A stretch of 36,414 nt of DNA. Origin: Saprospiraceae bacterium. Its GTDB lineage: Bacteria; Bacteroidota; Bacteroidia; Chitinophagales; Saprospiraceae. The DNA is taken from positions 1-36,414 of the forward strand of contig JAEUUU010000042.1 in assembly GCA_016787345.1 (NCBI GenBank), given 5' to 3'. The notes below the pieces were generated by a model that saw only the letters and a program-made list of their open reading frames with translations, was not told the origin of the DNA and searched no databases. Positions 25,209 through 36,283 of this stretch are shown piece by piece. The stretch's first letter is position 1, and each line of letters starts with the position of its first letter. Position numbers and translations under genes: made by a program.

Positions 25209-26429
25209 TCACACAAACCCCATCGGCCGAAACGCCTCGCCCAGAATATCATCCGCATCTGCTTTTAGCCAGCGCTTGAGCAGGGTGGCGTACACCTGCC
25301 GGAAATCCACCTGGAATTTCAGGTCGCCCTCATCGAGGTCGGCCAGGTCGGGCATGGGGTTGAGAATGCCTTTTTGCTTCAGGCTTCCGCCCAGGAAAAA
25401 CATCTGGTTGGCGGTGCCATGGTCGGTGCCGCCGCTGGCATTTTGCGACACGCGCCGCCCGAATTCAGAGAAAGTCACGACCAGCACGTCGTCCCAGCGG
25501 CCGTTGGCTTTGAGATCGGCTGCAAAAGCGCCGAGGGCTTCGTTGAGATCGCGGAACAGCCGTTCCTGCTGGCCTGTCTGGTTGATGTGCGTATCGAAAC
25601 TGCCGTGCGAGAGGTAGTACACCGAAGTATCGGAATCGGCCAGGATAAGCGAGGCAATGGTGCGCAGATGCCGGCCGAGTTCGGAATTGGGATAGTTGGA
25701 TGCCGTGGCTTTGGCGCGACTTTTTTCAAACAAATAGTCGGCCGAAGCCATGGTTTCCGCCATGGTTTTGTACAGATAACCCACAGGCGAATCGTCGTGT
25801 ACCTGTCCCGAGGGCGAGTTTTGGGGCTGTTTGACGGCGAGGTAGTCGCGGAAAAACGGGCTGTTGGCGCTGTCGTACAGGCGTTTGGGCTCCTGAACGG
25901 CAATGCCGCGCAGTTCTTCGCCTTTGAGGGCCAGGCTGAGCGTGTCGTCGATTTCAAGGATGGCCGTGGGGCGGTCGCAGCCCTTGCACTGGGCGTCGAG
26001 GTAACGGCCCAGCCAGCCCGTTTGCCAGATCTCGCTGGCCGGACTGGCGGTGTGCCAGATATCCATGCTGCGGAAATGGGAGCGGTCGGGATTGGGATAA
26101 CCCACGCTGTTGAGCACGGCGAGTTGCCCTTCGTCGTACAGACTTTTGAAGCTCGTGAGCGCGGGGTGCAGGCCGGCTTCGTCCGTTAGCGTCAGCGCCG
26201 TTTCGCGGGCAATGGCCAGGCGGGGCCGCTCGCGGTAATAGATGTCGTTGCGGGTGGGCACGACCGTATTCAGTCCGTCGTTGCCGCCGCTGAGCTGCAA
26301 CATCACGAGGATACGGCCGTTGTGGGCCAGTACGCCGGGGCGCCCGAATTCGTGCAGAAAATTGGGCAGCCACAGCGAAGCGGTAGCCAGCGAGGTGGTT
26401 TTGAGAAATTCCCGGCGTTTTATAAGCAT
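25209..26429 (-). CDS. DUF1501 family protein with a Tat signal
   Basis: The ATG at 26429 is chosen because it opens a twin-arginine signal (K-R-R-E-F-L-K-T-T at residues 4-12, then a hydrophobic stretch); upstream in-frame sequence is the intergenic repeat element. The 406-residue product shows DUF1501 features: I-L-V-M-L-Q-L-S-G-G-N-D-G-L-N near the N-terminus, D-R-S-H-F-R-S-M-D-I-W-H-T, Y-Y-L-S-H-G-S-F-D-T-H, V-V-T-F-S-E-F-G-R-R-V, and G-T-D-H-G-T-A-N-Q-M-F near the end. The family is related in fold to alkaline phosphatase/sulfatase enzymes and is exported folded; its substrate is unknown. It follows the DUF1800 gene on the same strand, a pairing seen widely. Its stop lies 5 bp from that of the convergent T9SS gene. 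Confidence 0.9.
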   Translation of the reverse strand: MLIKRREFLKTTSLATASLWLPNFLHEFGRPGVLAHNGRILVMLQLSGGNDGLNTVVPTRNDIYYRERPRLAIARETALTLTDEAGLHPALTSFKSLYDEGQLAVLNSVGYPNPDRSHFRSMDIWHTASPASEIWQTGWLGRYLDAQCKGCDRPTAILEIDDTLSLALKGEELRGIAVQEPKRLYDSANSPFFRDYLAVKQPQNSPSGQVHDDSPVGYLYKTMAETMASADYLFEKSRAKATASNYPNSELGRHLRTIASLILADSDTSVYYLSHGSFDTHINQTGQQERLFRDLNEALGAFAADLKANGRWDDVLVVTFSEFGRRVSQNASGGTDHGTANQMFFLGGSLKQKGILNPMPDLADLDEGDLKFQVDFRQVYATLLKRWLKADADDILGEAFRPMGFV

Positions 26430-26444
26430 GGCAATTTTTTTTAT

Positions 26445-26613
26445 GGTTGATAAGGGTTTATAAGGTTGATGAAAGGGGAAGGTTGCGCTCGGGATTTGAC
26501 CATTGACAAGGGTAAATCGGGCTGGAAGAAGGTTTAAAAAAGTCGAGCGCAGTAATGCCCCTTTTATCAACCTCATAAACCTCATCAACCCATATCAACC
26601 CCTTTTATCAACC
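26445..26613. repeat. Intergenic element A: inverted arms with a conserved structured core
   Basis: The left arm (26445-26478) and right arm (26558-26613) are imperfect inverted copies built from roughly 10-bp words of the type GGTTGATRAG/GGTTTATRAG. The 66-nt core (26485-26550) is closed by the 7-bp stem GCGCTCG/CGAGCGC and contains CCATTG at 26500 and GGTTTAA at 26531. The same core layout, with a different but still paired stem, occurs in element B at 28250-28423. Element A fills the spacer between the DUF1800 stop and the DUF1501 start, so it is transcribed with them. A mobile palindromic element (MITE/REP-like), a structured RNA or an attenuator are all possible. Confidence 0.85.
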
Positions 26614-26615
26614 TT

Positions 26616-28058
26616 TCAGCAAAGTTGAAACTCCGGGGTCGCCATCAGCTGCATAAACGTCGTTTTGATCCGTTTGTCGCGGCTGCTGCGGTCGGTGTGT
26701 TCTTCCATGACATCGAGCGGCGGCCGGGCCTCGGGCAGTTGCCAGAGGTAACGCGCCATTTGTTCGGCGAGCTGGGCGTCCGGGGTTTTGCCGAAGAGAT
26801 CGAGTACGGGCGTCCAGTTTACTTCAGACACGAGGCGTTTCTGGCGATCGCGCAAGGCATCGCCTTCACCCATATTCTGGTCATCGTCGTCTTTGGTACT
26901 GACGTTAAAATCGCCCTGCCAGGCCACGAGTTGAGGCAGGCGGAGGCGCAGCATGAGCGAGGAGGCGTCGATCCAGGTACGACCGCCGGGCCAGCCGGCC
27001 ACGTTGGGCGGGTAGAACAGGGTTTGGCCCAGGGCGTTTTGCACCAGAATTTGCGAAAGCGGGTCCTGCGGCTCGAAGGGCAGGGTGCGGCGCAGGCCGA
27101 CCCAGAGTTCGACGGGCGATTTGATCCGCGCGCCGATGTTTTCAGGGGCGTAAAACCAGGGGCTGCCCACGATGTCGTCGAGCAGGCCGGTGATGCTGTA
27201 TTGGCGTTGGAAAAAACGGGTGGCAAGGGCCTGGATGCGGTCTTCAGGCACGATTTCCTCGTTGACGATGAAGCGGTAAATCTTGCGGGTGATGTACACG
27301 GCCGTTTGTGGCTGCCGGAGCAGGATGTCGAGCACGTCGTCGCCGTCGAATGGGCCGGTTTGGCCGAGCACGGTCTTCGAGCCTTCGTCGTGCGCGCGGC
27401 GGCGAAATACAAAGTCGCCGTTGAGTTCGTAGCCCCAGCCGGTAAAAGCCCGGGCGGCCTCCTTGATGTCGTTTTCGGTGTAGTTGCCGCGACCGAGGGT
27501 GAAGAGTTCCATCACTTCCCGGGCGAAGTTTTCGTTGGGGTGCTGTTTTTTGTTCTGCTGGTTGTTGAGAAAAGCCAGCATGGCCGCGCTTTTCGACACG
27601 GCGCGGAGCAGGTCGCCGAAATTGCCCAGCGCATTTTTCCGGATAATGTCGAGCAGTTGCTGCTGATAAAGAATATTGATGTTGCGACTGGCAAAATGCC
27701 CGTGCCAGAACAGCGCCATTTTTTCGCGCAGCTGGGCCTTGCTGTAAATCATTTCATTCAGCCAGCGGACGTTGAGGTTGCGCAGATCTTCGCGGCTTTG
27801 GCGGCGCACCTGGCGCTTTTTGTCTTTGTCGAGGTTGTCGCTTTCCATGCGCCCGATCTCGCCGGCGCCCAGGAGCAGGCCCTTGACGGCATTGTCGGCC
27901 ACGTCGTAGTATTCCGGCTGGCCGGTGGAGAATTCCTTGATTTTGGACCACCAGGTGCTCTCCGGTCGCGATTCCCACGATTTCCAGTCGGCCGTAGCCG
28001 GCCCGAAGCCGGTGCGCCAGAGCAGGTGCTGAAGTTTGAGTTGTTTGGATACGGGCAT
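26616..28058 (-). CDS. DUF1800 family protein
   Basis: The 480-residue protein begins M-P-V-S-K-Q-L-K-L-Q-H-L-L-W-R-T-G-F-G-P, the usual N-terminal helix of DUF1800 proteins. Other family features: M-A-L-F-W-H-G-H-F-A-S, N-E-N-F-A-R-E-V-M-E-L-F-T-L-G-R-G-N-Y-T-E, A-A-R-A-F-T-G-W, F-V-N-E-E-I-V-P, F-Y-P-P-N-V-A-G-W-P-G-G, and the C-terminal L-M-A-T-P-E-F-Q. No signal peptide is evident. The family is of unknown function and is nearly always paired with DUF1501, as here. Long families of this pair are abundant in Planctomycetes and Bacteroidota. A terminator-like hairpin and element B separate it from the SPFH gene upstream, so it likely has its own transcription start. Confidence 0.9.
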   Translation of the reverse strand: MPVSKQLKLQHLLWRTGFGPATADWKSWESRPESTWWSKIKEFSTGQPEYYDVADNAVKGLLLGAGEIGRMESDNLDKDKKRQVRRQSREDLRNLNVRWLNEMIYSKAQLREKMALFWHGHFASRNINILYQQQLLDIIRKNALGNFGDLLRAVSKSAAMLAFLNNQQNKKQHPNENFAREVMELFTLGRGNYTENDIKEAARAFTGWGYELNGDFVFRRRAHDEGSKTVLGQTGPFDGDDVLDILLRQPQTAVYITRKIYRFIVNEEIVPEDRIQALATRFFQRQYSITGLLDDIVGSPWFYAPENIGARIKSPVELWVGLRRTLPFEPQDPLSQILVQNALGQTLFYPPNVAGWPGGRTWIDASSLMLRLRLPQLVAWQGDFNVSTKDDDDQNMGEGDALRDRQKRLVSEVNWTPVLDLFGKTPDAQLAEQMARYLWQLPEARPPLDVMEEHTDRSSRDKRIKTTFMQLMATPEFQLC

Positions 28059-28089
28059 ACGTCTGAGCGGTTATCAATCACGCCGGGCA

Positions 28090-28110
28090 GGGTTGTTGAT
28101 AAGGATTTAT
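28090..28110 (-). repeat. Solo arm fragment upstream of the DUF1800 gene
   Basis: Read on the minus strand this is ATAAATCCTTATCAACAACCC, a variant of the arm word of elements A and B, 31 bp before the DUF1800 ATG and in the same sense orientation as before the DUF1501 and SPOR genes. Confidence 0.55.
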
Positions 28111-28132
28111 GGAACCTGTCGGTGTGCGGTAT

Positions 28133-28166
28133 AAAAGCGACCGGGCGGCCTTTGCCGCCCGATCGC
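28133..28166 (-). terminator. Terminator-like hairpin between the SPFH and DUF1800 genes
   Basis: The arms GCGA-c-CGGGCGGC (28137-28149) and GCCGCCCG-a-TCGC (28154-28166) form 12 pairs with one mismatch and a 4-nt loop. On the minus strand the stem is followed by TTTTAT. It fits a rho-independent terminator for the SPFH transcript or an attenuator in the DUF1800 leader. The remaining part of this 371-bp gap holds element B and a small AAAC/GTTT hairpin near 28191-28221; I see no ORF in it. Confidence 0.65.
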
Positions 28167-28249
28167 CCTACAACACGGGTGAATCAACGTAAACAAAGAC
28201 GGCCAACGAGGCCGGATGTTTAATGCCTTAACAGAAAATTAATTTTTTA

Positions 28250-28423
28250 GGGGGTTGATGAGGGTTGATTAGGGTTTATGAGGTTGATAAAAAGGAGGGT
28301 GGATGCTCTCAGGGTCAGGCCATTGCATGGAAGAAATAAACAGGCGACCGGTTTAAGAACGCCGAGAGCGCCTCTCCCCTTTTTTATCAACCTCATAAAC
28401 CCTATAAACCCTCATCAACCCCC
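28250..28423. repeat. Intergenic element B: inverted arms with a conserved structured core
   Basis: The left arm (28250-28299) and right arm (28376-28423) are inverted copies of the same roughly 10-bp words as in element A and pair over about 45 bp with few mismatches. The core (28305-28369) is closed by GCTCTC/GAGAGC, whereas element A has GCGCTCG/CGAGCGC. CCATTG begins at stem start +15 in both copies, and GGTTTAA lies 13-14 nt before the 3' stem in both. The element starts 6 bp after the SPFH stop. No flanking target duplication or transposase is visible. Confidence 0.85.
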
Positions 28424-29410: not shown

Positions 29411-29763
29411 TTACTCGTCAAGAAAGCGTCGAATGTCGGTGTGAAGCTGGGGTAGATTGTTTTGCATAATCTGCCAGATCATTTCAACATCAACACCCCA
29501 ATAGTCATGTGAGACTTTGTTTCGAAGATTTTTAATTTTTTGCCACTCAACTCAACTTCCGGCTTCGAATCTTTGAATTGCTTTGATAACCGCTTAATAC
29601 ATTCACCAATCAATATAAAATTCATCAAAATAGCATCCTGATAAACAAAATTGGCTTCAAGGTCATGCGGGGTATCCATGTCCTTTCCTACCAATTGTAT
29701 TTTTTCGACCACTTCAAGAAGCAGTTCTAAAGAGTCTCTATCCTTTTCAGATAAAGATGGCAT
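29411..29763 (-). pseudogene. hepT: HepT-family toxin gene broken by a 5-bp tandem duplication
   Basis: The intact frame from 29763 yields 94 residues and stops at 29479, reading P-E-V-E then an unrelated tail. CTCAA stands twice in a row on the plus strand (29546-29550, 29551-29555). Removing one copy restores a 115-residue HEPN protein ending at 29411: V-E-W-Q-K-I-K-N-L-R-N-K-V-S-H-D-Y-W-G-V-D followed by I-W-Q-I-M-Q-N-N-L-P. The restored part carries the R79-x4-H84-x-Y86 RNase motif of HepT toxins and the Tyr that MntA modifies; the frameshifted product lacks all three. The start overlaps mntA by 17 bp. A sequencing error cannot be ruled out. The locus is visibly AT-richer than its neighbours, which suggests transfer. 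Confidence 0.88.
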
Positions 29764-35714: not shown

Positions 35715-35825
35715 AGGTCGAAAGATTGTTTTAGGCCACGAAAATAAGTCATGCGACGCCTGATAGTAGGGGTTGAAGCGAATTTACCACTATTCGGGTA
35801 CTGCACCGCTGTAGCGCCGCTGTAG

Positions 35826-36259
35826 CGCCGACCTCCAGGTCGGCGACACTGAGAGAAGGAAAAACCCGCGATTTGCAGCAATTGCTGGCAGTGTCCCTAC
35901 TTGCTATTGATTGTGGCATTCGCTCATAATCGCGGGTTGCTGCTGCCCTCAAACTCGCCGACCTGGAGGTCGGCGCTACAGCGGCGAACACTGAGAGAAG
36001 GAACAACCCGCGATCAGCAGCAATTGCTCGTAGTGTCCCTTCTTGCTACTGATCGTGACATTCGCTCATAATCACGGGTTACTGCTGCCCTCAAACTCGC
36101 CGACCTGGAGGTCGGCGCTACAGCGGCGAACACTGAGAGAAGGAACAACCCGCGATCAGCAGCAATTGCTCGTAGTGTCCCTTCTTGCTATTGATCGTGA
36201 CATTCGCTCATAATCGCGGGTTGCTGCTGCTCTCAAACTCGCCGACCTGGAGGTCGGCG
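35826..36259. repeat. Structured tandem repeat array (142-bp period) bounded by palindromes
   Basis: Four 20-bp palindromes, CGCCGACC-NNNN-GGTCGGCG, lie at 35826-35845, 35956-35975, 36098-36117 and 36240-36259. The last three are spaced exactly 142 bp; the first has the opposite central polarity (TCCA instead of TGGA) and a 130-bp spacing. The intervening units (35846-35955, 35976-36097, 36118-36239) are copies of one sequence; the last two differ at about four positions. Each unit has its own inverted arms AACCCGCGAT/ATCGCGGGTT and AGCAATTGCT. Together with a GCTGTAGCGCC doublet just before it, this occupies most of the 569-bp gap upstream of the 834-residue T9SS gene. No ORF is supported. 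Confidence 0.93.
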
Positions 36260-36283
36260 CTACAGGCGGCGCAACAGCGGCGC

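Follow-up and report, generated by a model that had tools for sequence, protein, structure and literature searches.

Dispersed palindromes with iterated-word arms at gene 3' ends in uncultured Saprospiraceae

Two palindromes in the window

We analyzed two intergenic palindromes, elements A and B, in a stretch of 36,414 nucleotides from a Saprospiraceae bacterium (contig JAEUUU010000042.1, positions 1 to 36,414; the window) and compared them with similar elements in the genome that holds the window (G000; 5.28 Mb, 191 contigs) and in related genomes. Genes for DUF1501, DUF1800, and Band_7/SPFH proteins, all on the minus strand, frame the two elements: A has the DUF1501 gene on one side and the DUF1800 gene on the other, and B lies between the DUF1800 and Band_7/SPFH genes. 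Both elements were confirmed where a sequence-only reading of the window had placed them. Element A is a complete palindrome of 170 nt (26445 to 26614) and element B is one of 173 nt (28251 to 28423), neither the palindromes nor their cores being assigned a strand. Each directly adjoins a minus-strand stop codon, as had been reported: A that of the DUF1800 gene (26616), and B, which lies immediately 3' of it, that of the Band_7/SPFH gene (28430). The start codon of the DUF1501 gene (26427 to 26429, minus strand) flanks A on its other side.

The two elements have one layout: a left arm of GGTTGATGA- and GGGTTTATAA-like words, an inner stem, a loop, and a mirrored stem and arm. The left arm of A (26445 to 26478, plus strand) reads GGTTGATAAG, GGTTTATAAG, and GTTGATGA, then AAAGGGG, and its right arm (26557 to 26614, minus strand) consists of CCCCTTTTATCAACC plus TCATAAACC and TCATCAACC words with an additional outer CCCCTTTTATCAACC. 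The left arm of B (28251 to 28304, plus strand) carries GGGGTTGATGAGGGTTGATTAGGGTTTATGAGGTTGATAAAAAG and then the outer stem GAGGGTGGAT; its right arm (28371 to 28423, minus strand) begins with the outer stem CCTCTCCCC and TTTTTT and continues with TATCAACC, TCATAAACC, and TCATCAACC words. The A core (26485 to 26550) is closed by GCGCTCG (26485 to 26491) and CGAGCGC (26544 to 26550), and the B core (28305 to 28369) by GCTCTC (28305 to 28310) and GAGAGC (28364 to 28369), so that, as the sequence-only reading had pointed out, the closing stems differ in sequence yet pair in each copy. Its two spacing claims also held: CCATTG lies exactly 15 nt past the start of the stem in both (26500 in A, 28320 in B), and the distance from GGTTTAA (26531 in A, 28350 in B) to the 3' stem is constant. 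An end-to-end alignment of the two cores scored 17, compared with −4.9 ± 3.5 for shuffled sequences (0/2000). Predicted folds of the gene strand were strong, at −63.4 kcal/mol for A (z = −6.8 versus shuffles) and −98.6 kcal/mol for B (z = −12.3 versus shuffles), and runs of three to six T residues follow the G+C-rich stem on both strands in each element. Between B and the DUF1800 start codon lie a lone word, GTTGATAAGGATTTAT (28095 to 28110), and two G+C-rich hairpins (28136 to 28214).

A dispersed family at gene ends

Searching G000 with element B returned 110 matching pieces, which resolved into 40 sites (including A and B) with spacings above 400 nt; the surroundings of the 38 other sites were taken in 35 loci. 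The stem half AAAAGGGTTGTTKCTGCTCTC occurred 217 times in G000 (up to 3 mismatches), compared with a single occurrence of the reversed control pattern. An array of three words was present in G000, in 12 of the 36 other genomes examined from the same genus, and in none of 23 genomes outside it; the reversed pattern was never found. In an order-wide sample, 12 of 396 genomes carried the array, among them 4 of 13 sampled genus members. The 8 positive genomes of this sample from outside the genus comprised 7 of the same family (1 to 40 hits) and 1 of another family (10 hits). A scan of named genomes found at least 115 stretches; among the 80 examined, 74 were from Saprospiraceae or other Bacteroidota, and 6 were from other phyla, with a single match each. 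A covariance model (R1) had no match in 198 genomes of the order, in a search that lacked a positive-control genome, scored only 27 candidates per listed genome, and is uninformative. The word-array searches show that further copies exist in related genomes as a multi-copy family.

Members of the family occupy a characteristic position. Based on genes called with a codon-usage script rather than a published gene finder, 122 two-armed elements were distributed over 81 co-directional, 16 convergent, and 9 divergent gaps; a further 10 lay where the retrieved DNA ended, and 6 overlapped a called gene. The background at the same loci was 443 co-directional, 104 convergent, and 99 divergent gaps, relative to which this GTTGAT-word family is mildly depleted in divergent gaps. 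In the 81 co-directional gaps, the first word began a median of 3 nt past the stop codon (10th, 25th, 75th, and 90th percentiles, −16, 0, 9, and 54), and the last word ended a median of 29 nt before the next start codon. Both ends of the element lay within 26 nt of stop codons in 12 of the 16 convergent gaps, and the TGA within the first word served as the stop codon at 10 gene ends. Location after stop codons, which had been noticed for A and B, is therefore general across the family. Core orientation relative to gene direction was 33:17 (p = 0.03), too weak to use.

What the copies have in common is a core stem. Its commonest form in G000 is the pair AAAAGGGTTGTTTCTGCTCTCG .. CGAGAGCAGAAACAACCCTTTT, of which A and B carry diverged forms. 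In relatives represented by metagenome-assembled genomes, the usual plan is (TTGATGAGGG)n, ATATTCAGCC(A/G)CTCG, a loop of about 24 nt, CGAG(C/T)GGCTGAATAT, and (CCCTCATCAA)n. From 95 elements of relatives, none of them from another phylum, we took 75 cores of 52 to 72 nt as the type-I set, excluding shorter and longer cores. In a fixed-stem test of these cores, 86.4% of cells paired, and changes on both sides were seen at 10 pairs. Covarying cells numbered 79, compared with 41.5 ± 4.7 in shuffled sets (0/500) and at most 31 in slid controls. The compensatory change proposed from two copies thus holds in the wider family. Because the family is multi-copy and its stem is kept by paired changes, neither of the outcomes named beforehand as counting against a structured element, an absence of further copies or copies with an unmaintained stem, was found.

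The arms are also matched within elements. Pairing between the two arms of an element was 0.813 in the 95 elements of relatives, compared with 0.713 ± 0.008 when arms were re-dealt among elements (highest of 2000 permutations, 0.741). The effect was weaker in 27 G000 elements (0.689 versus 0.648 ± 0.015; highest permutation, 0.695).

The interior of the core is less general. A and B have a common interior of 66 to 67 nt, and the sequence-only reading had put their shared core at 65 to 66 nt. This core is common to A, to B, and to the ortholog of A in the close relative G025 (locus L105), where it has the same orientation; no other tested copy matches it over its full length. When G000 gaps were pooled with G000/G025 loci and searched, the A interior matched nearly in full only the ortholog of A in G025 (score 60); 12 further listed matches were partial (scores 18 to 22 versus a shuffled maximum of 14), and about half of these are word arrays. 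The B interior had one partial match in the same pool (19 versus a shuffled maximum of 16). Among 10 long cores from the G000/G025 loci, collected with a pattern that recovered B and missed A, 3 contained CCATTG on either strand and 1 contained GGTTTAA. The stem, not the 65-nt interior, is the general feature of the family. We conclude that A and B belong to a family of extragenic palindromes dispersed over gene 3' ends in uncultured Saprospiraceae.

The family belongs among a larger set of gap palindromes, which we surveyed in 400-kb samples of G034 and G000 by counting palindromes of any sequence with a score of at least 20. The G034 sample had such palindromes in 25/53 convergent gaps, 23/142 co-directional gaps, and 5/62 divergent gaps; the corresponding G000 counts were 11/36, 26/173, and 1/48. 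Convergent gaps exceeded divergent gaps in both samples (p = 1.8e-6 in G034 and 2.7e-4 in G000), and the comparison of co-directional with divergent gaps gave p = 0.18 in G034 and p = 0.012 in G000. Gaps shuffled letter by letter contained none (0/249 and 0/254; 0/503 in total). In co-directional gaps, long palindromes started a median of 1 and 1.5 nt past the stop codon in the two samples. Some are ordinary G+C-rich or REP-like (repetitive extragenic palindrome) hairpins; in many, the arms iterate words of other vocabularies: AGTCCTG, GTGAGAG, GTTATGA, GGTTATT, GGTTTTGGGTGTT, GGATGCGAGGATTTGA, and GGTGAATTGGTTAT. When arms of at least 28 nt were examined (n = 85), 32 lacked a period exceeding the 95% level of shuffles and 53 had best periods of 5 to 14, the commonest being 7 (21 of the 53).

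The core stem recurs next to arms of different vocabularies. All 39 stem half-sites found with a related pattern in the G000 sample lie in gaps. The arms beside them belong to four or more vocabularies, including that of A and B (GTTGAT words); in some gaps, several half-sites stand on one side, 44 to 66 nt apart. The arm words are interchangeable modules around one stem. At two G000 sites (C61:893-1229 and C113:40826-41043), core half-sites recur every 50 to 57 nt on one side and are followed by an inverted half, a higher-order array of word arm plus core half. A further vocabulary, ATTAGCACATTAGCACATT, is found at locus L059, at G000 C141:86861, and in dozens of matches in G025 contigs. The array at locus L076 (1486 to 2206; G007:C1) is lopsided, with 57 forward words and then 5 reverse words.

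Elsewhere in the window, a gap at 35715 to 36283 (no strand assigned) contains a tandem run of three palindromes, with the REP-like sequence CTGTAGCGCCGACCTCCAGGTCGGCG as their frame. The stem inside them (GAGAGAAGGAAAAACCCGCGATT .. AATCGCGGGTTGCTGCTGCCCTC) is similar to the core stem of G000 in the reverse polarity, and by this resemblance only they may be related to the core-stem family; similar REP-framed copies are present in G000 contig C141. A small open reading frame at 29479 to 29763 has a Pfam HepT-like match (E = 5.6e-07), to a ribonuclease family with a link to toxin-antitoxin systems.

Turnover of the words and the molecule maintained

The persistence of palindromes was evaluated at orthologous gaps. 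Of 46 pairs, 40 were kept after dropping those with a gap outside 10 to 700 nt, with stretches of N, or with flanks less than 40% identical. With a palindrome score of at least 18 as the threshold, both members were positive in 17 pairs, neither in 13, and one in 10 (p = 0.0035, for pairs that are not independent). In several pairs, the words themselves are replaced: L140 has GATGAAT words and L222 GTTATCA words between flanking proteins that are 98 to 99% identical, L186 has AGGTGAG words opposite GTTGAT words in L122 between similar flanking proteins, and one of three gaps orthologous to the L045 gap carries GGTTGAGA words. In a palindrome shared by G034 and G028 (84 to 87% nucleotide identity), both arms have changed together, CTGTAGAGTACACC/GGTGTACTCTACAG in one and CCGTAGCGTACACC/GGTGTACGCTACGG in the other.

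Turnover is also visible between G000 and G025, whose DNA is about 95% identical in these loci. Among 36 G000 loci, the window included, 26 align to a fetched G025 locus, and the orthologous elements differ by insertion or deletion of whole words, loss of the core, and substitutions. Core orientation was compared in 25 pairs, of which 8 had cores too short and 17 were comparable, one of these (L032/L304) being at a paralogous site. The core was inverted in 2 of the 17, clearly at L055/L383 (0.67 reversed versus 0.17 forward) and weakly at L045/L267 (0.40 versus 0.12). For 10 G000 sites without a fetched counterpart, the joined flanks were searched in G025, an assembly 82% complete; 5 were comparable across the gap (L034, L046, L055, L059, and L062), and four had no listed match. 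At L063, the flanks are 5.4 kb apart in G025 (C203:10827-16433), an insertion or rearrangement at the element.

The sequence-only reading had offered an attenuator or other noncoding RNA among its possibilities, and several observations speak against RNA as the selected molecule. At gathering scores, Rfam had no match in the window, and a tRNA was its sole match in 140 kb of DNA from G034 and G000. Arm mismatches in the co-directional gaps of both samples comprised 50 of GU type, 55 of AC type, and 117 others, at 2600 matched positions. In the 75 type-I cores, G-U pairs numbered 177 versus 69 between the strands of the element and followed the element rather than gene direction; the core therefore has its own polarity. 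The lack of a sense-strand G-U excess, together with this element-bound core polarity, favors maintenance at the DNA level. The palindromy thus looks DNA maintained, and copying between arms could produce covariation even if RNA were not under selection. Selection on the RNA strand, first examined by a folding test (217 G-U pairs on the gene strand versus 477 on the other), was dropped, the aligned arms being symmetric. The asymmetry of that test splits into a core part that tracks element polarity and an arm part, which we tentatively attribute to longer start-side arms (6.9 versus 4.9 words in relatives; 4.4 versus 4.3 in G000).

Explanations and comparison with known systems

We tentatively favor, with a little less than even confidence, the view that the elements are gene-3'-end palindromes that act as bidirectional terminators or mRNA-end hairpins and are rewritten by slippage and template switching. 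The transcribed hairpin, with short T runs on both sides as in A and B, would end or protect messages arriving from either side, as a terminator or as a block to exonucleases, and the word arms would lengthen its stem. We infer this function, and because such a hairpin would end or protect messages, it would be tolerated or kept at 3' ends and rare in divergent gaps. Slippage would add or remove words, and intrastrand template switching or recombination between arms would copy one arm onto the other, restoring palindromy in the DNA; the same copying may sometimes flip the core.

Several results weigh against this view. The GTTGAT family considered alone is not enriched in convergent gaps (16/106 versus 104/646 in the background), the co-directional excess over divergent gaps in G034 is not significant (p = 0.18), and many of the 40 nonindependent gap pairs come from loci chosen for carrying a word array. 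The sense-strand G-U tolerance expected of a hairpin that functions as RNA is absent (50 GU-type versus 55 AC-type mismatches). A terminator scan found 7 sites in the region, compared with 3.2 ± 2.0 expected, and one lay inside an element (B). No T run follows the stem in the type-I cores of relatives or in the AGTCC palindromes of G034, and intrinsic termination therefore cannot explain all of the palindromes. Finally, the same cores and words at many loci require a route of dispersal, and no enzyme for it was found in a search of Y1 transposases alone.

Dispersal is the strength of the main rival, a transposase acting in trans. The elements would be nonautonomous, like miniature inverted-repeat transposable elements (MITEs), with the core stem pair as the ends of the mobile unit and a preference for hairpin or 3'-end targets, a reading we regard as somewhat unlikely; its corollary, that the word arms are target or hitchhiking sequence, we hold to the same degree. 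It would account for the same core at about 200 half-sites within arms of different vocabularies and for the sparse occurrence among related genomes. An orthologous gap of 22 nt (L147) stands opposite an occupied one of 180 nt (L043), with flanking proteins 47 to 67% identical, and families with terminal inverted repeats linked to RAYT genes have been described in the passages of PMC3733652 devoted to them. The inverted core and arms could correspond to the terminal inverted repeats of a MITE, their outer limits being fuzzy because the words iterate. As to the clean empty sites and target duplications that the sequence-only reading proposed to look for, G025 retains part of one arm where G000 has the L034 element, and no target duplication was shown. 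Moreover, 26 of 36 G000 loci align to G025 loci, and much of the family therefore predates the split between these genomes.

The Y1 family, the one examined, also speaks against that rival. Y1 transposases are present in all 13 genomes positive for the word array (from a sample of the genus and beyond) and in 34 of 42 genus genomes. All 13 Y1 matches of five element-rich genomes (G000, G034, G028, G016, and G006) lacked both the main-word array and the three core pairs in flanks that reached at most about 2.5 kb, or less where a contig ended, when searched with a pattern of the main word and these pairs; stray single motif matches occurred in 3 of the 13 neighborhoods. Membership in the RAYT/REP system was rejected on these 13 neighborhoods, which contain no main-word element. 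The Y1 flanks of 20 of 30 loci held mostly short G+C-rich REP-like hairpins, with an A+T-rich hairpin (L251), a terminator-like hairpin (L240), and a word palindrome of another vocabulary (L237) as exceptions. The short Y1-flanking hairpins of the genus are apparently a separate system. Such hairpins, with genome-specific sequences, flank Y1/RAYT genes at L238 (2012 to 2464), L249, L243, L241, and L245, and the L237 palindrome (70 to 310; G021) is built of GGTGGACGGTAGAC words and lies about 1.2 kb from the Y1 gene.

The favored reading could be extended to self-renewing palindromes: their place and pairing would be kept, while slippage edits and arm copying replaced the sequence with words peculiar to each lineage and the core stem recruited or seeded this process; as a whole, this extension seems unlikely. 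The persisting unit would then be the palindrome at the gap rather than its sequence, possibly with a dedicated word-writing enzyme. Frequent insertion and deletion of words, vocabulary turnover, and lopsided arrays such as that at L076, with 57 forward words before 5 reverse words, would also fit neutral, functionless growth and decay by slippage in 3'-end gaps that are merely tolerant. This is quite improbable given the stem covariation, the within-element pairing above that of re-dealt arms, and the concordant presence of palindromes at orthologous gaps. We consider it very unlikely that the words are inverted-pair sites for a DNA- or RNA-binding protein, such as a nucleoid protein or translational regulator: several unrelated vocabularies occur with the same core in one genome and vocabularies differ between relatives at the same gap, so that a sequence-specific protein is not expected. 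That reading has precedents in the opposite-strand tandem 7- to 8-mers of Geobacter metallireducens, called putative IHF/HU sites in the passages of PMC2700814 that treat them, and in heptamer direct repeats before start codons, proposed as regulator sites in the corresponding part of PMC4679880. The strong folds of A and B and the stem covariation would suit a structured noncoding or attenuator RNA family selected for folding. This appears the least probable reading of all, as mismatches show no sense-strand G-U bias, Rfam has no match, core polarity relative to gene direction is only 33:17, and arm copying in DNA could yield the same covariation.

Should the terminator and template-switching reading be true, a genome would carry hundreds of gene-end palindromes whose structure persists while their sequence is replaced, and these would provide a natural test of whether palindrome correction in DNA, rather than selection on RNA, creates RNA-like covariation. 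Judged by covariation tests alone, the elements would be labeled RNA families, a conclusion against which the inverted cores and the absence of a G-U bias caution. They would also supply a dense collection of candidate bidirectional terminators, together with a fast marker for comparing strains in a lineage that is mostly uncultured and common in activated sludge.

In the open-licence literature we found no description of this class of palindromes, and we do not claim that it is unpublished. Cyanobacterial STRR heptanucleotide repeats, including those in tRNA-Leu intron hairpins, are like the present elements in forming stems of degenerate heptamers that grow and shrink, and unlike them in being confined to one intron or to direct repeats and in having no known common core. 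Template switching at quasipalindromes makes inverted repeats more perfect. In Escherichia coli, quasipalindrome mutation has been described as a template-switch process at imperfect inverted repeats (PMC7202029), as here proposed. It is a mutational mechanism rather than a family of elements; for the present elements, the mechanism is a proposal.

The REP/REPIN-RAYT system offers the closest likeness in placement. REPs measure 20 to 40 bp, most are tagged GTAG or CGTC, and GTAG repeats or long inverted repeats flank RAYT genes, according to the sections of PMC3733652 on these repeats. As multi-copy extragenic palindromes found mostly downstream of genes, in convergent and co-directional gaps, and with proposed roles in termination and mRNA stability, REPs as outlined there resemble our family (PMC3733652). 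A and B, at 170 and 173 nt with iterated-word arms, differ from repeats of 20 to 40 bp (the GTAG/CGTC tag was not searched here), and no main-word element was present in the flanks (up to about 2.5 kb) of the 13 Y1 genes considered here. The paired hepta- and octanucleotide sites of G. metallireducens share intergenic tandem short units on opposite strands, a variable distance between halves, and several classes per genome, and they differ in phylum and sequence and are described as putative sites of global regulators (PMC2700814, in its passages on these sites). Those passages make no mention of a core stem, word exchange, or core inversion, all present here (PMC2700814). Iterated intergenic heptamers also occur sporadically in some Bacteroidetes as TAACTGA direct repeats (PMC4679880, in the part describing them), and one of our palindromes, at L222, contains the TAACTGA-type word GATAACTGATAACC. 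In the genome described in that part of PMC4679880, 169 sets are direct and one is inverted, and the repeats sit mostly just upstream of start codons, whereas the family of A and B consists of inverted pairs after stop codons.

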